Assembly: GCA_937941745.1 (NCBI GenBank)
Contig: CALDGV010000732.1
Span: 1-15,520, forward strand
DNA from: an uncultured Prosthecobacter sp.
GTDB taxonomy: Bacteria; Verrucomicrobiota; Verrucomicrobiia; Verrucomicrobiales; Verrucomicrobiaceae
DNA: 15,520 bases
Direction of reading: 5' to 3'
In this document: piece by piece, positions 5,060 through 15,520 of the stretch
Layout of the letters: every line of letters starts with the position of its first letter
Numbering within the stretch: the first letter of the stretch is position 1
Program-made: the position numbers and the translations under genes
The notes under the pieces: model-generated
What the model saw: the letters and a program-made list of their open reading frames with translations, nothing else
Databases searched by the model: none
What the model was told of the DNA's origin: nothing

Positions 5060-5605
5060 TCACCAAATCACGTCCAGCAGCACGGTCGCCGTCATGGCGC
5101 CTGACAACACCAGGCGGACCGCCAGTCCCACGCCTGTTCCAAGCAATGTTCCCCAGGTGCTCTTCACCGCTGGAGCCATTCGTTTCTTGGCGAAGATCAG
5201 CTCAAATACCAGACCACCGGCCAGAGGCCCCAGAAGGAAGCCAAGAGGCGCGAAAAAGAGCCCCACGACACCTCCGACAAAGACGCCCAAGATGCCCCAG
5301 CGGCTGGCACCAAACCAACGTGCGCCCATCGCCCCTGCTGCCATGTCCACGAAGTAGGAGACGACGAGCAGCAGCGCGAGGATCACCAGCCCCACCCAGC
5401 TCATGCCCTGCTCTGGCAGCAGCACCGTGTGCAGCACGCCGGCGATGAAAATCAGAAAAGGCCCGGGCAGCAGGGGCAGCACGGAACCGATCAGGCCGAC
5501 ACCCAGCAGGCAGATGGTCAGCGACCAGACCCCCAGCACCTGCCAAGGAAGCGAAGTGACGAGCGTGGTGAGCCATTCCCAGGAGTCTTGCAGCCATTCC
5601 ATCAT
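5060..5605 (-). CDS. DUF456-family membrane protein
   Basis: A 181-aa integral membrane protein of the DUF456 family. The family hallmark is a glycine- and proline-rich pair of helices, seen here as I-G-S-V-L-P-L-L-P-G-P-F-L-I-F near residues 39-53, then G-A-M-G-A-R-W-F-G-A-S-R-W-G and the glycine-rich G-V-F-V-G-G-V-V-G-L-F-F-A-P-L-G-F-L-L-G-P-L. About five membrane helices can be drawn. The family's function is unknown. The start is set at the ATG at 5605 (M-M-E-W); another in-frame ATG at 5644 would add 13 residues not typical of the family and leave only five bases to the upstream stator gene. It is the last gene of the minus-strand run and may be co-transcribed with the GTPase operon, but its family is widespread on its own, so a shared job is doubtful. 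Confidence 0.8.
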   Translation of the reverse strand: MMEWLQDSWEWLTTLVTSLPWQVLGVWSLTICLLGVGLIGSVLPLLPGPFLIFIAGVLHTVLLPEQGMSWVGLVILALLLVVSYFVDMAAGAMGARWFGASRWGILGVFVGGVVGLFFAPLGFLLGPLAGGLVFELIFAKKRMAPAVKSTWGTLLGTGVGLAVRLVLSGAMTATVLLDVIW

Positions 5606-5649
5606 GCGTGTGTGTAGCCCTGATACGCACCGTGCGCACCACATTCCAG

Positions 5650-6588
5650 CTAAAGAGGTTTCGGCTTGGCTCCGGTGGCACTGAAAAACAGCACGCGATG
5701 CTCATCACAGATCTCGACGCCGTAGTCGAGCCCCAGCTCAAAGATGAGCTTTTTGAGTTCACGCATGGTGCTGAAGGAGTCCGGATAGACGTAAAGTGTG
5801 AGATAGCGCTTCGTGCCTACGAGCTGGGGAAGAAATTCACGCAGGCGCTTGGCATCGCGCACCGGCAGCAGGCCCTGCCCTGGCTGCGGCACCGCCGTAA
5901 AATGACCATCGGCAGCCGTGGCGCGCACAATGCCAGGAACCGGCTGGCCATTGGCATCAAAGAGAGGAAAAACCTGCCCGTGTCGAAGAATGATTGGGGC
6001 TGGAGGCCGGTCAATCTGGCGTTCACGAGGAAAACGCACCGTCTCGACCTTGAGACGGCTCACGGTCTCCAGCTCCAGTTGAAGGTCGGCGAGCTGCTTC
6101 TTCACTGCAGCGTGCCGTTGTCGCGCGGCCTCGGTCGCCTTGTTGGCCACACCCAGCTTCTTTTCAGCTTCCTGAACCTGCTCACGCAGCCGCGCTATCT
6201 CCGTGCTCGCATCACGCATCAGCTGTTCCGCCTTTGTCGCAGCCAGCTCATCCTGCTCCGCACGCTGCTGTCGCCGCTCTTCGGCAGTCTTTTTCAAAGC
6301 CTCGAGCTCCTGGACAAGCGGCTTCATGGACGGGTCATCTTCACGCTGAAGCTGCGCACGTCGTTTTTGCAGGCCGTCCAGCTCGGCACGCGCCTGCTCC
6401 ATCTGCTTTTCCAGAAGGATGCCTGCCTCGTGATCCACCACCTCGTTCGCCGGCGTGACCTCAGGCTTGGGTCGGCTGAGCATGGCCAGCAGGCAGGCAA
6501 TCAGGATGATGCCGCCAAACACATTGCACAAGGTGTCGAGCAGCAGTTCCAGGCTGTCCTGATTTCCGGAGTGAAGACGTCGCTTCAT
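5650..6588 (-). CDS. MotB/ExbD-like stator protein with coiled coil (second copy)
   Basis: A 312-aa single-pass protein. A short basic N-terminus leads into one membrane helix (about 15-37) that opens with the acidic residue D18 in L-L-L-D-T-L-C-N-V-F-G-G. MotB and ExbD carry an essential proton-accepting Asp at this place, so the protein is likely the plug/stator partner of the MotA/TolQ channel encoded two genes upstream. Residues 55-185 are a charged heptad-rich coiled coil, in the periplasm by the positive-inside rule. A C-terminal domain of about 120 residues follows, with R-Y-L-T-L-Y-V-Y-P-D-S-F near 255-266. I see no OmpA-type peptidoglycan-binding motif. The start ATG overlaps the previous gene's stop as ATGA. 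The layout repeats that of the preceding gene. The role is inferred from layout and context, not from strong sequence identity. Confidence 0.75.
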   Translation of the reverse strand: MKRRLHSGNQDSLELLLDTLCNVFGGIILIACLLAMLSRPKPEVTPANEVVDHEAGILLEKQMEQARAELDGLQKRRAQLQREDDPSMKPLVQELEALKKTAEERRQQRAEQDELAATKAEQLMRDASTEIARLREQVQEAEKKLGVANKATEAARQRHAAVKKQLADLQLELETVSRLKVETVRFPRERQIDRPPAPIILRHGQVFPLFDANGQPVPGIVRATAADGHFTAVPQPGQGLLPVRDAKRLREFLPQLVGTKRYLTLYVYPDSFSTMRELKKLIFELGLDYGVEICDEHRVLFFSATGAKPKPL

Positions 6589-7436
6589 GGCCGCCCTCCT
6601 TTCAGCGAGGCCTCGTTGCCAAATTCGATGTCGGCCTCTTCAGGAATGACGTCGTAGCCAATCTCATAACCCTCCGCGCGTGCGCGCTTGGTCAGCATTT
6701 CAAAGTGCTGGGCTCCTGAGGGCTTGAAGTAAAAGACAACGTAGTGGCTGTCCGGCGAAGCCTGGCGCAGGTAGCTGGCAAAATCGGCCACTGAACCTGC
6801 CCCCGACGGGGTGCCATCCGGACGCTGAAAACGGATCAACGAGCTTTGCACCAGGACCAGGATCGGCAGCTTTTTCGAGCCATCACGCTCAGGAATGAGG
6901 GTGATCACGTTTTGACGCTCACGAGCACGTTTCAGCGAGCTCTGGGCATCAATGACCTTCTTTTCGAGGTCGGGAATGTCCTTGACCCATCCCGATGAAA
7001 GCAGCTCCCCCTCATGAAGCGAAGCATTCAATTGCTCCAGGCGGCTCAGCAGCTTCTTTTTCTCATCTCGCAGCAATGAATCCCTGCCCGTGGCATCCGC
7101 ATCCCGGTTCAAACCTGGAATGGGTCGGCCATCCATTTCGGCGATGCTGGTTTTAAGCTGCCCAATGAGCCGGCGCACAGTCGTTTCATCCAGGTCCGGC
7201 TGCCGCTCCCAGTCAGCCACCTGATGCTGAAGGGTGATGATCTGAGCTTTCATGGATTTCAGCTCCTCCTGCCTCTTGGCATAAGGCACCGCACCGCTTC
7301 CTTCCGCCAGCTTTTCATCCAGGTTCAAGGCCAGGAACAGCGCCAGGGCGATCAGGAACCCGGACGTGCCGGTGATGATGTCCTGAAAGGCAAAGAAGCT
7401 GATCCCGCCGGTCTGTCTGCCAAAGCGTGAGCGCAT
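6585..7436 (-). CDS. MotB/ExbD-like stator protein with coiled coil (first copy)
   Basis: A 283-aa single-pass protein. The N-terminus is basic (M-R-S-R-F-G-R), then G-G-I-S-F-F-A-F-Q-D-I-I-T-G leads into a membrane helix at about 17-38 with D19 at its start, the position of the proton-binding Asp in MotB/ExbD. Residues 45-185 form a coiled coil with heptad-spaced Leu/Ile and many Lys, Glu and Arg. The last 100 residues look like a small alpha/beta domain, with H-Y-V-V-F-Y-F-K-P-S-G and later Y-E-I-G-Y-D-V-I-P-E. The ATG at 7436 lies four bases after the channel gene's stop; an in-frame ATG at 7475 would overlap the channel gene by 35 bases. The F-Q-D-I-I-T motif resembles uncharacterised PVC-group proteins found beside MotA/TolQ genes, as I recall. 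It is the likely direct partner of the channel. Confidence 0.78.
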   Translation of the reverse strand: MRSRFGRQTGGISFFAFQDIITGTSGFLIALALFLALNLDEKLAEGSGAVPYAKRQEELKSMKAQIITLQHQVADWERQPDLDETTVRRLIGQLKTSIAEMDGRPIPGLNRDADATGRDSLLRDEKKKLLSRLEQLNASLHEGELLSSGWVKDIPDLEKKVIDAQSSLKRARERQNVITLIPERDGSKKLPILVLVQSSLIRFQRPDGTPSGAGSVADFASYLRQASPDSHYVVFYFKPSGAQHFEMLTKRARAEGYEIGYDVIPEEADIEFGNEASLKGGRP

Positions 7437-7440
7437 GAGA

Positions 7441-8295
7441 TTAGCGGCCGTTGAGCCGGAGTTTGCCTGCCACATTCTTGTGGCAGATGTCGTTGCAGGT
7501 GTCGAGGAACTCAGACTCGCGGCTCTGCAGCCAGCTTACCAGCAATTGCAGGATCAAGGCGCAGACGAGCGCCACGAGGGTGGTTTCAAAGGCTGTGGCC
7601 AGGCCGCCCGTGACATTTTGCAGCGAGCTGCGCAGGGCCACCATGTCCGCCCCAGCCGCCAGGGTGGTGGCAAAGGCACCGATGGCCTGGCTGAGCCCCT
7701 GCACCGTGCCAATGAAGCCAAGCACGGGAATCGCCCAGAGGAAGCCCTGCGTCATCGCATAGCTGGAGGCGATCTGTGCCTCATCATTCTCCGCCTGGAT
7801 CTTGAGAATCGCAGCCACATCGGCGGTGTGTCCGATGTTGTGAAGATTGGCCAGCGCCAGATCAATGCGGTTGAGCAGGATGAAGTGGCTCGGATCGTCC
7901 ACAATCGCCCCCATGCGCTCCCGCACGGCCCTCGCCGTGGCCGGCGTGAGCTCAAAGTCGGGCTGCTGAGGCATGACCGGCAGCTTTTCCGCCTTCACCT
8001 GGAGTTGAAACTTCCGCCATTTCAGAAACAGCATGGCCAGCGCCCAGAAGAAAAGCAGCATCGTCGGATAAGGGCATGGGCCGCGCTGGGTGAACATGTC
8101 GCGAAACCACGGCGGCACAGGACCGGCCACAACAACCGCATAAAAGAGGAGCGTCATCGCCAGTCCGAGCCAGAAGGCCAGCCACTTGTTCGGCGAGGTG
8201 AACCGGCCGCCCGAAAAGCCAATGCGGCGCTCAGGATCCATGCGCGACCAGCTGAGCATGAGCAGCGGAGAGGAAGAAAAGGGATTGGGGTCCAT
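7441..8295 (-). CDS. MotA/TolQ/ExbB-family proton channel protein
   Basis: A 284-aa inner-membrane protein with four hydrophobic segments at about 38-58, 78-95, 182-205 and 232-257, and a cytoplasmic loop of about 85 residues between the second and third. This is the MotA/TolQ/ExbB topology. The third segment contains P-V-L-G-F-I-G-T-V-Q-G-L, the family's conserved glycine-threonine motif, and the last carries G-L-A-T-A-F-E-T-T-L-V-A-L, matching the pore-lining ALxTTxxGL region. Family members form pentamers around a dimer of MotB/ExbD-type proteins and turn proton flow into rotation or force. Two candidate partners follow immediately downstream. The start ATG at 8295 gives a 37-residue polar N-terminus before the first helix. 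Compared with TolQ the N-terminus is longer and the C-terminal tail short, unlike the long-tailed ZorA of Zorya. Confidence 0.88.
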   Translation of the reverse strand: MDPNPFSSSPLLMLSWSRMDPERRIGFSGGRFTSPNKWLAFWLGLAMTLLFYAVVVAGPVPPWFRDMFTQRGPCPYPTMLLFFWALAMLFLKWRKFQLQVKAEKLPVMPQQPDFELTPATARAVRERMGAIVDDPSHFILLNRIDLALANLHNIGHTADVAAILKIQAENDEAQIASSYAMTQGFLWAIPVLGFIGTVQGLSQAIGAFATTLAAGADMVALRSSLQNVTGGLATAFETTLVALVCALILQLLVSWLQSRESEFLDTCNDICHKNVAGKLRLNGR

Positions 8296-8326
8296 GAGTG
8301 TTTGAAAAGACAGAGGCAGCAGGTTT

Positions 8327-8980
8327 TCAGGCGTCCCCGATGGGGAAGATGCGGCGGAAAAGATCCGGAGCCAAAAGAGCGGTCAAAACGGCCAGCGCGA
8401 GCGTGCTGTAGCCGATGATCACAGCCCCGAGCGCCAGTCCGCGTCCCTCCAGAAGCGGCTGCCTCTCCATCTGACGCAGTGCCAGGTGTCCAAGCACCAG
8501 GCTCGGCAGCCAGCTCACCAGGTTCAAGTAGGGCACGAAGCTGGCACAGCTCACCACAAAGGCGGCGACGGCCAGCCAGCATGTAGGAGCGACATCGGCA
8601 GCCCCCACCGCTTCGGAGTCTTCTGCCGATCTTGCGGCGGCCATGCTCGCTTTGATGAAAACCGGAGGCGCTTTGCCAAAGGGATCGGGCTTGGAAACCT
8701 GACCCTCGAAGCCCATTCTGCGCCGGCCAGACAGCCTCATCGGCTCTGCCGGCTCCATCTCCTTTTGCCGCAAAGCCGATCCCAGCAGGGCAGCTCGGCT
8801 TTCCAGTTCAGCCGCATCCAGGGACTCCAGATGATCACGCAAAGGCAGCCAGCCTGCATCGACGCGGATCTGATACAGAGAATGAATCTCCCCGGCCTGC
8901 AAAGCCTCCCGAATGCGTGTGATGGACCAGGGACCGATAGCCTGGCCTCGCCATTGGAGCTGATGCAGAGATTCGCTCAT
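8327..8980 (-). CDS. GYF-like domain plus DUF4190 membrane protein
   Basis: A 217-aa protein with an N-terminal GYF_2-type domain at about 7-52: W-R-G-Q-A-I-G-P-W-S-I near 10-20, and D-A-G-W-L-P-L-R near 41-48. In this bacterial domain a G-P-[FYW]-S turn and a late Trp form a peptide-binding face. A polar linker of about 80 residues follows, then two C-terminal membrane helices of the DUF4190 type (about 133-200) with L-V-L-G-H-L-A-L-R-Q between them and R-G-L-A-L-G-A-V-I-I-G-Y in the second. The GYF part would face the cytoplasm. In this operon it could tether a proline-rich partner; the Pro-rich linker of the GAP1 protein is one candidate. The ATG at 8980 overlaps the preceding stop as TGATG; a GTG at 8983 would add one residue. 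Confidence 0.82.
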   Translation of the reverse strand: MSESLHQLQWRGQAIGPWSITRIREALQAGEIHSLYQIRVDAGWLPLRDHLESLDAAELESRAALLGSALRQKEMEPAEPMRLSGRRRMGFEGQVSKPDPFGKAPPVFIKASMAAARSAEDSEAVGAADVAPTCWLAVAAFVVSCASFVPYLNLVSWLPSLVLGHLALRQMERQPLLEGRGLALGAVIIGYSTLALAVLTALLAPDLFRRIFPIGDA

Positions 8981-11964
8981 CACTTCAGGAAAGGAGTTTC
9001 TGACGGTGCTGAACCCGCGGATGCCGAAGCTTTCCCGGCCAAGCTGCCATGATAGTCCCGCAGCAGTTCCTGGCGGTCGAGAGGCAGAAAAAGCACTGGA
9101 GTGAAGGGGGGCACCTCAGCAGAAACGGAGGCCGTGCCTGCGGCTACTGGCTTAGGAGAGCTCTTGGTGGCCAGCCAGACTTCCTGGGCTGCACGTGCGG
9201 CATTGTTGAGCTTCACACGACGGTCGGTGTCCACAAAGCCACCAAACCTCACGCCTGCAGCCACCACCCGCATGATCAGCACCCGGCGCGCCTGGGCCTC
9301 CTTTTCATACTGCGGAGCTTGTCGGCTGGAGAAAAAACCTTCCAGCGCACCGTCGAACTGGGCACGCACCTTGGGGATCATCCAGTCTTCACTGCGCAGC
9401 GGATAGCTGCCGATCAAACGATGCAACTCAGCCAGGTCAGCCCGCAACGAAGCGCACAGGTGCCATCCCCAGGCAAAAGGCCGGTCACGTGTCAGGCGTT
9501 CCAGCTCAAGCATGATGTAGGCCTTGGCGAGCGGGGGGGCGGTGGCATCTCCCATCAGACGATCCAGGGTGTCGAGAAGGCTTCGTTCAAACTTCTCACC
9601 GTTCGCATCCGTCATCCGGTCAAGCTGAAGGCTTTTCACCAGCGTGCCTGTCGTGCTGGGCCGGGAACTGAGCACGCTCTGCCCCTGCTCGCTGCCGCCG
9701 CCGATGGCGAGGCGCTTGAAGTCCTGCTGAATGAATGCTGCCCCTGTATCTTCAGGATGAGGATCGAAGGCCTTGCCGCTCCAGCGCCTCTGGCTGTCGC
9801 CAATGCGGCCTTCACTCAAAGGCCCCAGACTCCAGACGCTGCGCTTTCCACGGCCGCTGGAATGATCCATAATCACATTCTCCCAGATGCCGTTGAGGTT
9901 CGGATCATCCCGAAGTGCGAGCAGCACCTTCAGATCATGCTCCTGGGGTGTTTCGGGATGCATGGCAGCACCACTCACATCCTCCACCGCAGCTTTCCAC
10001 ATGGCCAGGTCGCCATTCATGAGCAGGCTGGCCAGAAACTGCTCCTCCGTGGGCAGGGCATTGAGTGCGCTGGCTGCAGGTGCGGCTTCGATGAAGGCGA
10101 TCTCCTGCCAGAGCGAGAGTACGTTGCGGTATTCAGCGAGGCTGGTGGCCGCAGCGGTCTTTTCACGAACTTCGCCCAGCCGGTGCAGGGCCTCACGAAA
10201 GGTCTGCAGGCGCTGGCGGGCATTCCTGATCTGCGCCTCCAGGTCTGCTGGCAGTTGCAGCGAAGCTGCTTCTGGACGGGTGTAGGCTTCCAACCCTGCG
10301 ACCTGGCTTTCAAGCCTTGCCACAGTCGCCTCCACCTCAACAGCCGGCTTTTCAAAGCTCAAGCCGGACTTCAGTTCGCCAGCCATGCCCTCCAACTGCC
10401 TGCGCACTTCCTGGCTGCGGTTGGCGCCGAGATCTGCCAGCATGAGTTCGGACTTGGTCTTCAGGGCACTGATGCGCTGATTCACACCAGCCGCCACATC
10501 CCCAGGAAGCTGCGCTGCCAGCGCCCTGGCATCTTCCAGACGTTTCAGCACTTCGGCAGGCTTCAACGAGCCAAATTCGGCCTCCAGCGACTTCAACGCC
10601 ACCTCAGCCTGCCCGAGCAAACCCTGGCTTTGGCCGGTCCACGCTTCGGTTTCCTCGATTCTTGTGCGCAGGTAGGGCCAGCGAAGCAGAAGCGGATGCT
10701 CGCTTCTGAGCACGGCCACCAGCTTGGCTGCCGGCTCCGCAAGCTGGCGGGCCTTGTAGCTGGCAAGGTCAAGGGCGTAGGCTCGCGCCTGCCAGCCATG
10801 CCAGGCAACCCCAGCCACCGCGAGCAGAAAGGCGATCAAAGCCGCCGCAGAAAGGAAGGCACGGGCACGCACCCTGTTGCGGGCATGCTCAAGCGCAGAA
10901 CGAATTTTCTGCCCAACCTGCCTCAGACGGGTGAGAACATCTTCTGCCACAGGCAGGCCATGGCTTTCCAGTTCTCGCCACCGACGGATGAACTGCTCAT
11001 CCAACGAGGCAGCTTCCGAAAGCCGGGGCGGCGTGCCTGTCAGGAGCCGAGTCTCGGCTTCTTGGACAAAGGCCTGAAAGCCGCTCAAAGAGCGCTCAAA
11101 GGCACGCTGACGTTCAATCGCGTTGCGCCGCTGGCTGCAGGCGGCTGTGAGCACCTCGAAGGCGCTCCTCAAGCTTCCATCAAGGCGGAGATCGTGCTTG
11201 AAAACCAGGTCGCCCACCATCTCGCAGGCCAGCAAAACCGCCTCCCATTCGCCAGCGGTATGATGCTTCTCAGCCTCGGCAATCAGACTGGGAATCTTCT
11301 CCTCAGCCTGACGACGACGCAGCGCCTGGCGGATCCCTTCGGCCTGGATGAACTCGGCAGCATCTGCGCGCTTGTCTTCCGGCACGGTCATCGCGACCTT
11401 TTCCGCCAGGACGGCAATACGTTCCTCATCATCCGTCTTCAGTGCCGCACGGAGTTCCTCCATGGATTCCTGCCACTGCTTGTTTTCCAGGCGCTGCAGT
11501 TCGGCGCGGGCGTTGTCATCACCAGGATTCAGCTTCAGAATCGTGCGAACGATGCGCAGGGCCTTCTCGTTCTCCCGGGAAAGCACCGCTGCACGGAAGT
11601 CTTTGTAAAGCGGGTGATTCGCCGTGACCCCTTGGGCATAAAGCCGGTCCAGCGCCTGCACGGTCCTGGCATCAAGCCTTGGCGCGACCGGCAGCCGGTG
11701 AGCCTGACAGAAATCCAGCCAGGCTTTCTCACCGCCGAAGCTGAGCGCAGCCGCCAGATCCAGCAGCGGAGGCTCTTCTTCGGCGGCCTGCAGCGCCTGA
11801 TAGTCACTGCCTTTCGCCAGCATGGCAGCGATGCGTTCGAGCCGTGCAGAGCACTCTTGTGAGAGCCGTGCATAGGTGACTGCCGCCTGCTCCACGGCAC
11901 TGGAGACGATGCCCGTCTGCAAAGTGGAGCGGATGAGTTCGATGGTGTCTGTGGGGGGCTTCAT
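8980..11964 (-). CDS. Large single-pass coiled-coil membrane protein, 994 aa, unknown family
   Basis: I do not recognise a named family. Residues 1-365 are almost wholly alpha-helical and charged, with tetratricopeptide-like stretches (for example A-L-R-I-V-R-T-I-L-K-L-N-P-G-D at 135-149). A basic segment (R-N-R-V-R-A-R at 362-368) precedes one membrane helix at about 367-388, so the N-terminal part should be cytoplasmic and the rest periplasmic. Roughly 395-640 is helical with heptad spacing. Then comes a mixed region with a Gly/Ser-rich patch around 700-790, another helical domain to about 935, and a Pro/Ala/Ser-rich tail. It has no Walker motif, signal peptide or peptidoglycan-binding motif. 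The gene starts inside the GAP1 stop (ATGA) and ends inside the GYF start (TGATG), which fixes both boundaries. It could link the cytoplasmic GTPase module to periplasmic parts of the complex. Confidence 0.8.
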   Translation of the reverse strand: MKPPTDTIELIRSTLQTGIVSSAVEQAAVTYARLSQECSARLERIAAMLAKGSDYQALQAAEEEPPLLDLAAALSFGGEKAWLDFCQAHRLPVAPRLDARTVQALDRLYAQGVTANHPLYKDFRAAVLSRENEKALRIVRTILKLNPGDDNARAELQRLENKQWQESMEELRAALKTDDEERIAVLAEKVAMTVPEDKRADAAEFIQAEGIRQALRRRQAEEKIPSLIAEAEKHHTAGEWEAVLLACEMVGDLVFKHDLRLDGSLRSAFEVLTAACSQRRNAIERQRAFERSLSGFQAFVQEAETRLLTGTPPRLSEAASLDEQFIRRWRELESHGLPVAEDVLTRLRQVGQKIRSALEHARNRVRARAFLSAAALIAFLLAVAGVAWHGWQARAYALDLASYKARQLAEPAAKLVAVLRSEHPLLLRWPYLRTRIEETEAWTGQSQGLLGQAEVALKSLEAEFGSLKPAEVLKRLEDARALAAQLPGDVAAGVNQRISALKTKSELMLADLGANRSQEVRRQLEGMAGELKSGLSFEKPAVEVEATVARLESQVAGLEAYTRPEAASLQLPADLEAQIRNARQRLQTFREALHRLGEVREKTAAATSLAEYRNVLSLWQEIAFIEAAPAASALNALPTEEQFLASLLMNGDLAMWKAAVEDVSGAAMHPETPQEHDLKVLLALRDDPNLNGIWENVIMDHSSGRGKRSVWSLGPLSEGRIGDSQRRWSGKAFDPHPEDTGAAFIQQDFKRLAIGGGSEQGQSVLSSRPSTTGTLVKSLQLDRMTDANGEKFERSLLDTLDRLMGDATAPPLAKAYIMLELERLTRDRPFAWGWHLCASLRADLAELHRLIGSYPLRSEDWMIPKVRAQFDGALEGFFSSRQAPQYEKEAQARRVLIMRVVAAGVRFGGFVDTDRRVKLNNAARAAQEVWLATKSSPKPVAAGTASVSAEVPPFTPVLFLPLDRQELLRDYHGSLAGKASASAGSAPSETPFLK

Positions 11965-14573
11965 GGGGCGGACTCGATCTTGATCTCACACAGTCTTCTG
12001 AGACCGGCAAACAGGCTGTAAAACCCCTTCGGAAGACCAAGGGAGGCCGGAGTCATGGGGACGAGGGCTTTACGATCCCCTTCGAGCTGAAGAAGGCGCT
12101 GCTGACGAACGGCCAGCGAATCATCCAAACGCCGAGCCTGCTCTTCCTTTTGAGCCTTGGCGAGCTTGCTGGCGGCCAGTTCGGACCGGCGCTGCTCATC
12201 AATCCGGATTCCCTGGCGAAGGGTTTCCAGCTCTTGATCCAGGCTGACGAGCCTGAATTTCGCCGCACTGTCGCTGACAGGCGAAAGATCAGCCTCAACC
12301 AGCATCCGCCTGCCTTCGGCACGCAGCCGGAAACGGCGTGATGGATCATCGACATTTTGCAGCCTGAGCGGCGGATTGCCGACGATGCTCAGGGTTTGCA
12401 GCCAGCGTGAAGCCTGAGCATCGAGATACGTGGCCGTTCCTGCAATTTCAGCCTTGAATGAAAACCCCTCCGAAGCAGGCCAGGCATCCACCAGTTCCGC
12501 CGCCTTGGGCAGAACAATGACCTCAAACAGCACTTGGGCACCGCTGGCATTTCGGCTGATCAGGCGTGTGGCGACCGTTGGATCCGGCAGCCTGACCAGA
12601 CGGCGCTGACTGAACTCCAAAGGCAGAGGATCGTTGAAGCTCTTGCGATAGACACCGGCTGCACCCAGGGGCCTGAGACGAGCAAGCCTGGATTCAGGAT
12701 CGCCCACGGATCCGATGAAGACCTGCATTTCAGGTTCCGTGGGCAGGGACGGCAGTTGCTCCAAAGCCTGGACCAGTGACATCAGCGCTGTCTCCATGAC
12801 GATGTAGCGAGGATGAGCTGAGGCCGGTCCATCGGCAGGAATCACCGGCTCTCGCGTGGTCTCGGCGGGCGGCATGATCACGGGTGGTGGAGTCACTGCG
12901 ACGGGTGCCTGAGCGCTGGGGGCCTGGAGTTGCTGGCGAATCTGATCACGCAGCCAGACAGGGGCTTCAGGCAGGTTCTGCGCCTTCTTCAGCGTTTCGC
13001 GATCGGCTTCCGTGAGCTGCGCGGGAGCCTTGGAGGCCAGTTCCCAGGCCTGAATCCAGCCAGGCTCCTCCGAGGCAGTGAGTTGCATGCTGCTGAGAAG
13101 GTCCCGCCATTGACGCGGCGTGCCCTGGCTCGGTGGGCGGGCAACAAGATGCTTGAGCACCTGCTGATGAATCTCCTCTGGCAGCACCTCCGGCATCTCT
13201 GGCACACCCCCAAAAACGAGCGCCACCTCGCTCCACTGCTCCTTCATACGGCTTACGGTCACGAGCACCTTGGAATGCACCTCTTGAGGATCATCGCCAG
13301 ACCAGGCGGGATCACGAACCCCCTCCTGAACCCAGCGCAGCCAGGAACGGAAACCCAGGACGAGGTCCGTGAACTCGTCCTGCGTGCTGGGCGGCATGGA
13401 AATCTCCGCTGGCCGAAGTGGTTCACGGATGGCCGCCAGAATCTGCTGGAGCGTTTCGCGATGGGCCTCCACCAAAGCCTTGTCACCCTGTGCCTTGAGC
13501 CAGTTTTGCGTCGCAGGCAGCTGCAGGCGGTGCCTTTGCCAAAGCTCATCCACGTCCCGCGCCAGGCTGATGGCATCCTGCGGATGGTTCTTTTGGAAAG
13601 AACCCAGGCGAGGAAGCTGGGGCAGCAGCAGCCATGAAAGCATGCCCAGCAGCGCCATGCCGGCTGCAACCGCCACCAGCGGCCAGGGCGAACGAGCTCC
13701 GCGTGGATGATTCTCTGGAAACAAGGGCGGCAAAGGTGTCGCCACCTGAACCGGCGCATTCACAGGAGAAGCCGGAGGCTGAAACTGAGGAATCGCAGCG
13801 CTGACTGGAATTGTTTTGCTTTCGTGAAGCCTGGGCGCAGGCAGTGTCTGTGGCTGGGTGAGGTCAAAAACGGTTCGGGAAGCCGACTCCACCTGGGAAC
13901 GCAGCGGCGAATCATGGGCCAGGGCCAGCCAGCGTAAATCCGCAAGGTCATCAGTCGGCTCGACATGGGTAGTGAAGGTGACCAGCCAGGCCGAAGTGCC
14001 GCCCACCTTGGCCAACGATTCATGGAAAAGCTCCAAGGCACCCTCCTCGCTAGGCAGGAGAAGCAGGCAGCGCTGAGCCTGGGCAGGCAGGGCTGCGTTT
14101 GCAGCGTCATGCGTCAGCTTCTGCCAGGCTCCAGACTCTTGGCTGGGACGGAAGCTGGCCAAGGAGACTTCCTCATCGGGTCCGAAAAAACGAGGAGACT
14201 CGTTCCAGCCTCCCAGCCAGCGCATCTGCCGGAGAACATCCGCCGGGGTCAGGCCTGCTTCAGCTGCACCCCGGGCCTCCCGAGCCTCCAAGATCAAGTG
14301 ATGAGCGATGTGGTTGGTGCGCCCGGTATAATCCGAACCCGCATCACGGATGCAGCTCAGCACATGATGGCTGCCGGCACCCACATGCAGGATGCGATGA
14401 CTGAAGACCACACGACGCGGGTTCAACCCGGGAGTGTGGGCGAACTGCGACACACGCTCCACCGCTGCCGCCAGCAGCGCCCCCACCGACCGATGCCTCG
14501 CCACCGTGCCAAAGCCCGTCCGGCCCGCTTCGAGCAGGCGGGGGGCTGAGGTATAAATGAGCTGGTGGGCCAT
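11961..14573 (-). CDS. GAP1-type GTPase-associated protein with membrane anchor, 870 aa
   Basis: The N-terminus resembles the GAP1-N2 domain as I recall it. It reads H-Q-L-I-Y-T-S-A at 3-10, V-V-F-S-H-R-I at 55-61, and the strongly diagnostic D-Y-T-G-R-T-N-H-I-A-H-H-L near 81-93, then P-A-D-V-L and G-G-W at 110-123. W-L-V-T-F-T-T at 196-202 belongs to the following middle part. GAP1 proteins are encoded beside TRAFAC-type GTPases and were proposed as their partners in conflict systems. Here a Pro-rich linker (255-290) leads to one membrane helix at about 297-318, which is followed by some 550 residues, probably periplasmic. These comprise a helical region, a Pro-rich linker near 545-590, a beta-rich region, and a short coiled coil near 780-835. 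It begins 16 bases after the GTPase stop and overlaps the next gene as ATGA. Domain naming is from memory; the membrane fusion is seen directly. Confidence 0.78.
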   Translation of the reverse strand: MAHQLIYTSAPRLLEAGRTGFGTVARHRSVGALLAAAVERVSQFAHTPGLNPRRVVFSHRILHVGAGSHHVLSCIRDAGSDYTGRTNHIAHHLILEAREARGAAEAGLTPADVLRQMRWLGGWNESPRFFGPDEEVSLASFRPSQESGAWQKLTHDAANAALPAQAQRCLLLLPSEEGALELFHESLAKVGGTSAWLVTFTTHVEPTDDLADLRWLALAHDSPLRSQVESASRTVFDLTQPQTLPAPRLHESKTIPVSAAIPQFQPPASPVNAPVQVATPLPPLFPENHPRGARSPWPLVAVAAGMALLGMLSWLLLPQLPRLGSFQKNHPQDAISLARDVDELWQRHRLQLPATQNWLKAQGDKALVEAHRETLQQILAAIREPLRPAEISMPPSTQDEFTDLVLGFRSWLRWVQEGVRDPAWSGDDPQEVHSKVLVTVSRMKEQWSEVALVFGGVPEMPEVLPEEIHQQVLKHLVARPPSQGTPRQWRDLLSSMQLTASEEPGWIQAWELASKAPAQLTEADRETLKKAQNLPEAPVWLRDQIRQQLQAPSAQAPVAVTPPPVIMPPAETTREPVIPADGPASAHPRYIVMETALMSLVQALEQLPSLPTEPEMQVFIGSVGDPESRLARLRPLGAAGVYRKSFNDPLPLEFSQRRLVRLPDPTVATRLISRNASGAQVLFEVIVLPKAAELVDAWPASEGFSFKAEIAGTATYLDAQASRWLQTLSIVGNPPLRLQNVDDPSRRFRLRAEGRRMLVEADLSPVSDSAAKFRLVSLDQELETLRQGIRIDEQRRSELAASKLAKAQKEEQARRLDDSLAVRQQRLLQLEGDRKALVPMTPASLGLPKGFYSLFAGLRRLCEIKIESAP

Positions 14574-14589
14574 GGAACAGACAGGACAT

Positions 14590-15520
14590 TCACTTCACGG
14601 TGACCACCTCAGGCGCGAGCTGCGACAGCACCCAGAGCGTCGGAACCTCCACCTGCCGAGGTTGGATGCTCTGTGGGTCAGGACCGATGCGTACGTGGCC
14701 TTCACGATCAGTGAACTGCACCGGGGAGCAGCCAAGCGGACTGATGGCAAAATAGGCGACGTTGGAAGAAATAGCCTCGGCATTCGCCACGATGGCCGGG
14801 CAGAGTTCGAGCAGCATTTCGCGAATGCGCGCCGAGTTCTGCCGAATGTTGTCCTGAACGAGAGCTCCCTTTTCCACACAAGGCAGCAACGGACCACCGG
14901 GCAGCAGATGCTCCCAGGTGTCGCTTTTGCCCACCATGACGGCAAAAGGCGTGTCGATGGTCTGACGTGAGTCGAGACCGAGGACGTTTTTGATGCGCAC
15001 CTCGGTCTCGGCGAGAATCACATCCTGCTGGTCGAGCCGACGACTTTGAATCTGCGGATCACGAATGCCACGCAGGCGTGCACGGAACTCCGTGTTGTGC
15101 AGCGGATCGAACAGGAAAAAGATGCCCGAAGCCACGGCGATGTGCTGGGCTCCCGGGGAATCGGCACTGTTCCGAGTAGGTTCAAAGTGCTCGCCCGCAT
15201 TGTCGTAAAACACGAGAGCAAAATCGGTGTCATGCGCCCTGCTGCGGGTGACACGGAAGACAAAGGGTTTCGGCAGCCGCACCTTGCGCCCCTGGCGTGG
15301 CAGGGTCTCGTAGAGCATGCCCTCCAGTTCCGTCTTTGCCAGAAAGGCATCCTCCGGTGTGGAGGCGGAAAAGAGCTGCGTGCGCATCTGCGTGAGAATC
15401 ACGTTCTCCGAAGGGTCGGCATCACGGAAGGTGACACCGAAGTTTTGATACAGGCTCGTCTGGAGGGTGCGTGTGAGCACGCTAAGGTAGTAGCTCTTGC
15501 CGGACGAGGGCGCGCCCACG
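14590..15520 (-). CDS. DO-GTPase2-like P-loop GTPase (partial, N-terminus beyond the right edge)
   Basis: The 309 residues present are the C-terminal bulk of a P-loop GTPase. Counting from the GTG at 15519, which is probably an internal Val codon, the Walker A loop is G-A-P-S-S-G-K-S at 2-9. A G3-type motif F-Y-D-N-A-G-E follows at 104-110 (DxxG with the extra Glu typical of TRAFAC GTPases), and the base-specificity motif is V-G-K-S-D at 196-200, a GKxD form of NKxD. The long insertion between G1 and G3 and the position before a GAP1 gene fit the DO-GTPase2 (double GTPase) family of predicted conflict systems. No membrane segment is seen, so it is cytoplasmic. A Walker A loop so near the edge means a further N-terminal region may be missing, possibly a zinc ribbon or other domain. 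The stop at 14590 lies 16 bases before the GAP1 start. Confidence 0.8.
   Translation of the reverse strand, partial: VGAPSSGKSYYLSVLTRTLQTSLYQNFGVTFRDADPSENVILTQMRTQLFSASTPEDAFLAKTELEGMLYETLPRQGRKVRLPKPFVFRVTRSRAHDTDFALVFYDNAGEHFEPTRNSADSPGAQHIAVASGIFFLFDPLHNTEFRARLRGIRDPQIQSRRLDQQDVILAETEVRIKNVLGLDSRQTIDTPFAVMVGKSDTWEHLLPGGPLLPCVEKGALVQDNIRQNSARIREMLLELCPAIVANAEAISSNVAYFAISPLGCSPVQFTDREGHVRIGPDPQSIQPRQVEVPTLWVLSQLAPEVVTVK

Follow-up and report, generated by a model that had tools for sequence, protein, structure and literature searches.

Systems in which a DO-GTPase accompanies a GAP1-N2 protein were classed as conflict systems by Kaur et al. (2020, eLife, PMC7159879). The available portions of that paper give tubulin, HSP70 and kinase as the three large themes of the class, list verrucomicrobiae, and describe planctomycete GYF proteins with trypsin or a transmembrane (TM)-rich region. 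A force-transducer survey (Mol Biol Evol 2025, PMC12204202) describes, in its accessible sections, clusters of the Planctomycetes-Verrucomicrobia-Chlamydiae (PVC) group that combine a TPR gene, a tolQ-like gene, two heterologous tolR-like genes and a vWA transducer. We analysed a 15,520-nucleotide stretch from an uncultured Prosthecobacter sp. (contig CALDGV010000732.1 of assembly GCA_937941745.1; hereafter the window), in which one operon joins a DO-GTPase and a GAP1 protein to a MotA-type channel with two stators. As far as the accessible text of the two papers extends, the DO-GTPase/GAP1-N2 class and the TPR-tolQ-tolR-tolR-vWA clusters were known separately, and what appears to be new here is a switch of the former class joined to a motor that resembles the latter: the available main text of PMC7159879 has no occurrence of MotA, ExbB, TolQ or proton channel, and that of PMC12204202 none of GTPase or GAP1. 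No publication joining switch and motor was found among openly licensed papers, judged by titles and abstracts.

The operon consists of seven genes in the same direction on the minus strand, from 15519 down to 5650, and their junctions are 4-nucleotide overlaps or gaps of 4 to 31 nucleotides. The first gene runs past the window end and encodes the C-terminal 309 of about 596 residues of the DO-GTPase (14590..15519). It is followed by GAP1 (11961..14573), a 994-residue scaffold (8980..11964), a 218-residue DUF4190 membrane protein (8327..8983), a 284-residue channel of the MotA/TolQ/ExbB type (7441..8295), stator 1 (283 residues, 6585..7436) and stator 2 (312 residues, 5650..6588). These coordinates bear out the tightly coupled seven-gene operon of the first-pass annotation. 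The arrangement is more than chance, for it recurred in a MotA scan of bacterial genomes, which listed at least 11 loci (L001-L011); eight of these carried all seven genes in identical order, L003 and L004 were cut by contig ends, and in rearranged L010 the GTPase-GAP1 pair and the motor were divergent neighbours. By organism name, ten of the loci belong to Verrucomicrobiaceae, Prosthecobacter or Brevifollis and one to a Verrucomicrobia bacterium.

The switch half shares with the systems in the accessible part of PMC7159879 a zinc-ribbon DO-GTPase beside GAP1-N2 and a GAP1 that often has a TM segment. On the incomplete window GTPase, PF19993 (DO-GTPase2) matched at E 0.0043, below the Pfam cut-off; this protein is 95% identical to that of L001, and the full-length GTPase of L002 has 596 residues. 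Pfam at E<=0.01 on 45 full-length relatives identified DO-GTPase2 in 42, GYF_2 in 16 and FHA in 9, the FHA-like, GYF_2 and zinc-ribbon parts lying outside the window portion. Residues of three nucleotide-binding motifs were invariant in 45/45 relatives (L002 numbering): G288, G293 and K294 of the P-loop GAPSSGKS (15493..15516), D392, G395 and E396 of the Walker B region DNAGE (15190..15204), which includes the conserved Glu of DO-GTPases, and K484 and D486 of the guanine-specificity-like motif GKSD (14920..14931). The zinc-ribbon cysteines 206, 209, 265 and 268, in the region beyond the window, were equally invariant. Thus the DNAGE and GKSD motifs noticed earlier are sound, and the motifs uphold the claim of a P-loop GTPase, although the window holds little more than half of the protein.

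The GAP1 protein matched the GAP1-N2 domain PF20013 at E 3.2e-20 (73 bits against a cut-off of 24), and its GAP1-M match was weak (E 0.14, 12.8 bits against a cut-off of 24). By eye it has a single hydrophobic stretch near residue 300 followed by about 550 residues, in agreement with the GAP1-N2-type partner with a membrane anchor proposed at first, and one such stretch was counted in most GAP1 homologues from motor loci. Two features set the operon apart from the systems described in the accessible part of PMC7159879: none of the seven window proteins, among them the incomplete GTPase, gave an fn3 (fibronectin type III) match at E<=1, and the downstream module is a MotA channel with a two-stator motor. 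Since no fn3 partner was matched, we consider the operon a variant of the GAP1-N2-type DO-GTPase system and not a canonical member.

The motor half begins with the channel, which matched PF01618 (MotA_ExbB) at E 5.6e-9, over the cut-off, along residues 156-263, as expected from its earlier naming as a MotA/TolQ channel. It ends 21 residues past this match, with no long tail. Four hydrophobic stretches are visible in it by eye, and most homologues have three or four of them. T197, T238 and T239 were kept in 41/42 sequences, the remaining one being truncated. Column conservation also marked a proline-rich loop at residues 106-118 (7942..7980): P109, P112 and F/Y114 were present in 41/41, 26/41 and 41/41 GTPase-linked MotAs, and in 5/8, 0/8 and 1/8 GTPase-free relatives, respectively. 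A GYF domain or the GTPase might dock at this loop.

Neither stator had a Pfam match over the cut-off. Both start with a hydrophobic stretch containing an Asp and continue with a coiled coil and a C-terminal domain, which in stator 2 may be TolR/ExbD-like; a structural comparison of the stator domain gave TolR/ExbD as its best matches, with modest Z scores that suggest such a fold. Comparison of the stator 1 and stator 2 profiles gave a match probability of 99. The membrane Asp of stator 2 (D18, codon 6535..6537) was present in 37/37 sequences, and that of stator 1 (codon 7380..7382) in 34/37, with Ser in the other three (L003, L007 and L008, near relatives of the window), indicating that the Asp of the first stator is replaceable. 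The earlier description of two stators therefore stands as to the Asp-bearing membrane stretches, but stator 1 starts at 7436, giving 283 residues, and not at 7475. Two features of the 5:2 motor class are thus present, namely a MotA/TolQ/ExbB domain with a pore-helix Thr and a single-TM partner with a membrane Asp.

Between switch and motor lies the 994-residue scaffold, for which AlphaFold2 (mean pLDDT, the predicted local distance difference test, 83.7) predicted TPR-like helices, one TM helix within helix 341-405, a helical part and a beta-rich part. The first-pass annotation had called it a membrane coiled-coil protein; the membrane part holds, but the predicted TPR-like helices and beta domain show more than a simple coiled coil. 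No clear relative of this 994-residue protein was found. By BLAST clustering, scaffold homologues occurred in 71/91 loci. The adjoining 218-residue protein had been named a GYF-DUF4190 protein: PF13828 (DUF4190) was detected at E 1.2e-11, over the cut-off, while the N-terminus is GYF-like by eye only and GYF was not detected by Pfam. Across loci, DUF4190, GYF-trypsin or other TM-rich proteins adjoin the scaffold and MotA.

We then examined the spread of the system in a phylum sample of 387 genomes. GAP1-N2 was found in 72 of them, 71 over the cut-off, giving 79 neighbourhoods (78 search places plus a second copy in G002). MotA was present in 30 of these 79 neighbourhoods, 27 times with both stators within the fetched piece; the other three pieces were cut short of stator 2, which was found further on. 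As far as the pieces reach, the canonical order was kept in 26 of the 30, and L061, L085, L102 and L132 were rearranged. A stator-2 profile search gave 42 strong matches (>90 bits) in 37 of the 387 genomes, and 34 of these 37 were among the 72 GAP1-N2 genomes, so that co-occurrence was not limited to close relatives. Thirty of the 42 matches fell in a GAP1 neighbourhood. Among the other 12, L164, L172 and L175 were bare at contig ends, L170 and L171 had a scaffold at the contig start, and L165, L173 and L174 had a scaffold with no GAP1 before it; only about 2 kb was visible at L165 and L173, and at L174 GAP1 lay about 23 kb away. Four more were GTPase-free divergent motor trios (L166 9859-12424, L167 8973-11493, L168 8214-10746 and L169 9997-12511), whose neighbours in several cases resemble, by eye, EPSP synthase or YihY proteins. 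Two loci (L178 8849-12195 and L177 8217-10451) showed, by eye, a MotA with a zinc-ribbon-like N-terminus, an Asp-less first stator-like protein and an Asp-bearing second; the first stator-like protein of L177 had a profile match of only E 0.05. Within one family, stator 2 was found at E<=1e-15 in 28/68 genomes, two of these 28 near 86 bits, and this count misses at least one genome (G011, L004) through a contig end. Because of this patchy distribution, the system looks accessory.

To assess whether switch and motor share their history, we compared tree distances. Distances on the GTPase tree correlated with those of MotA at r 0.93 (38 loci), of stator 1 at r 0.89 and of stator 2 at r 0.92 (35 loci each), and 999 shuffles reached at most 0.28. 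At the 24 loci with RpoB, the GTPase-MotA correlation was 0.90 and remained 0.85 as a partial correlation allowing for RpoB, whereas GTPase or MotA against RpoB gave r 0.55 each, above all shuffles. The pair therefore tracks itself more than the species, which supports shared evolution of switch and motor beyond species kinship. Together with the co-occurrence in 34/37 genomes, this agrees with the coupling of GTPase/GAP1 to a two-stator channel that had been suggested from the window. Placing the motor label on the GTPase tree takes seven changes, of which well-supported branches force at least six, and the label occurs on either side of the main group's first split; one change is enough for the PilM-like partner label. 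These counts are inflated by contig ends and missing genes, and 14 of the 42 motor-free rows have <9 kb of downstream sequence and say little. One discordant pair was noticed: G298 (L055) and G336 (L088) have near-identical RpoB and GTPase-motor systems on opposite sides of the tree, through replacement, different copies or a binning error.

The partners that follow the core differ between lineages. In seven loci, stator 2 is followed by a protein that combines a hydrophobic stretch at its N-terminus with a linker rich in Gly/Ser; five of the seven were scanned, and VWA_2 was matched by 5/49 proteins in the partner scan. The layout of these TM-linker-vWA proteins of other lineages is TolA-like. 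A different branch has PilM-like and T2SSM/PilO-like proteins after the core, with PilM_2 in 8/49 scanned proteins (best E 6e-17) and PilO in 2/49. At nine motor-free core loci (L062, L063, L064, L070, L073, L077, L089, L090 and L092) a PilM-like gene after the scaffold replaces the motor, joined in several of them by T2SSM/PilO-like genes. We read the vWA and PilM/PilO-like partners as envelope mechanics.

By its description in the accessible part of PMC12204202, the PVC cluster resembles the motor half in having one channel, two different TolR-like genes and a TPR-like gene before them, and its vWA gene after the motor is matched by the TM-linker-vWA gene in several lineages here. In the window, by contrast, stator 2 is followed by a DUF456 gene and there is no vWA gene. 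With TolQ-TolR and ExbB-ExbD the operon has in common the MotA_ExbB domain, the Thr and Asp positions and, as modest Z scores suggest, a TolR/ExbD-like stator domain; it differs in that its stators are of two kinds and have long coiled coils, and no TolA, TonB, TolB or Pal was recognised in it. Among experimentally studied systems, the nearest analogues appear to be Agl-Glt and Zorya, in working and not in membership. The available portions of PMC9389320, PMC12288465 and PMC3169522 describe, for Myxococcus, AglR with AglQ and AglS, both MotB-like, MglA as the GTPase together with its GTPase-activating protein, AglR and GltJ among the MglA effectors, and the FHA protein GltG. From these descriptions, one MotA-like protein, two MotB-like proteins and GTPase control may be likened to the window operon. 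The GTPase and regulator families differ by Pfam, and Glt-type transducers were not recognised here. Zorya, as described in the accessible part of PMC11890865, also has a proton motor of MotA-like and MotB-like proteins. The operon has neither a long ZorA tail nor a ZorC/D/E/F/G match, and Pfam gave no OmpA match for a Pal-like peptidoglycan-binding domain, as in ZorB, on the stators. To judge by tail and partners, the operon is not a Zorya system.

A defence role had also been proposed, and we searched the operon and its surroundings for support. Pfam and PADLOC scans of the seven proteins recognised no defence effector. PADLOC gave a weak ZorA-like similarity for MotA (best E 5e-7), weak coiled-coil matches for stator 2 (best LmuB, E 4e-5) and no ZorC/D, ZorE or ZorF/G match at E<=0.1. 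At E<=1e-10, one or two of the 117 flanking proteins scanned (of 170) matched PADLOC, in the families mad2 and mad3, which we take to be methylation-associated. The flanking Pfam families were mostly metabolic and transport (first 25 of 114). A plasmid search returned no close copy of MotA or the GTPase, a phage search no GTPase match, and no viral-contig relative of stator 1 was found. Profiles of the motor proteins studied here recognised two distant relatives of the motor on plasmids. On Anabaena cylindrica plasmid pANACY.03 (L184, 5327-9517 and 13130-13882), a trio of long-tailed MotA, Asp-less stator 1 and Asp-bearing stator 2 (profile E 4e-43, 3e-17 and 3e-27) comes directly after a CARF-HEPN gene at a type III-B CRISPR locus. 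Beyond it lie four hypothetical genes, a deoxynucleoside kinase and, 3.6 kb after the trio, a viperin gene, making this a possible CRISPR-linked proton motor. On Microcystis aeruginosa NIES-2481 plasmid p1 (L185, 6536-9136), a similar trio adjoins N-6 methylase, SLATT, helicase, NUDIX and integrase genes. Given these neighbours, the motor family can at least accompany defence.

An anti-phage or conflict system, in which the switch would sense envelope damage or invasion and open a proton channel in a Zorya-like manner or dissipate the membrane potential, would fit the conflict class of Kaur et al. (2020). The patchy distribution, the plasmid trios and the RpoB correlation of only 0.55, which leaves room for transfer, point the same way. 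Against this stand the lack of a recognised effector enzyme, the scarcity of PADLOC matches in the flanks, the negative plasmid, phage and viral-contig searches and the envelope-like partners of the core elsewhere. We consider this explanation unlikely, and a defence role of the operon is not supported. As a special case of an envelope motor, the operon might serve surface motility or adhesion, analogous to MglA/AglRQS/Glt of Myxococcus, and move adhesins or polymers along the cell. The parallels with AglR/AglQ/AglS, MglA and GltG favour this, as do the single channel with its two stators, the FHA and GYF parts of the GTPases, and the TM-linker-vWA proteins that several lineages carry after stator 2. 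Pfam, however, assigned DO-GTPase2 and GAP1-N2 to the switch proteins, with no Ras-like or Roadblock family among the matches, and none of the operon genes was recognised as encoding an outer-membrane or adhesin protein, leaving this version rather doubtful.

Alternatively, the operon might unite, for the sake of regulation alone, two modules that work independently, one a Tol-like motor and the other formed by GTPase and GAP1. GTPase-free motor trios, scaffold-motor sets with no adjoining GAP1 (L165, L173 and L174) and motor-free GAP1 loci, including the clade with PilM-like partners, are what independent modules would leave. Yet the GTPase-MotA correlation persists after allowing for RpoB, and in the rearranged L010, L132, L085, L061 and L102 the GTPase, GAP1, MotA and the two stators still lie together, which makes two unconnected modules very unlikely.

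We therefore favour, as the probable explanation, a GTP-switched, proton-driven motor of the 5:2 type with an asymmetric axle, exerting force across the envelope. The gene content, the conserved residues of switch and proton path and the joint evolution of switch and motor are observations. The operon products would form one trans-envelope machine whose stoichiometry, heterodimer, topology, GTP gating, force direction and cargo we infer. MotA and the two paralogous stators would make up a proton-driven 5:2-class motor, in which a MotA pentamer probably surrounds a stator1-stator2 heterodimer and the stator 2 Asp would be the indispensable proton carrier. The DO-GTPase would act as the cytosolic switch and the membrane-anchored GAP1 would sense or regulate it, while the TPR-like protein of about 1000 residues may serve as scaffold or transmission, joining switch to motor and reaching into the periplasm. 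The GTP state would engage the motor, possibly via GYF domains on the proline-rich MotA loop, and proton flow would then pull or turn something in the envelope; in several other lineages, the outward force carrier may be the TM-linker-vWA protein. A more elaborate form of this proposal is tentative. It holds that the system is a GTP-clutched rotary motor, in which DO-GTPase/GAP1 and a TPR-like transmission would drive an obligate heterodimer axle with unequal proton carriers, that it is an old, modular engine of the phylum whose output part (vWA transducer, trypsin or DUF4190) was swapped between lineages, and that motor relatives were recruited beside a CRISPR locus.

Pfam shows nothing unusual among the other genes of the window (Aconitase_C, GCV_H, His_Phos_1, DUF456, Amidohydro_2 and CxxCxxCC proteins), two of which lack a match; a 333-residue protein encoded at 1588-2589 has no Pfam match at E<=0.01. 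The DUF456 membrane protein (5060..5644, minus strand; PF04306, E 3.6e-30) begins 5 nucleotides past stator 2 on the same strand, has no counterpart in any of L001-L011, and is probably a neighbour rather than part of the operon.

In the literature searched, to the extent of its accessible text, DO-GTPases are named in two papers, both computational. If a motor is fixed to a DO-GTPase switch, the action of that switch becomes measurable as proton flow and force. For AglQ/AglS, the accessible part of PMC9389320 asks whether one axle is shared by two types of stator, and the unequal stators found here make this question directly testable. If the proposal is true, the operon would represent a GTPase-controlled motor of the 5:2 type outside the myxobacteria.

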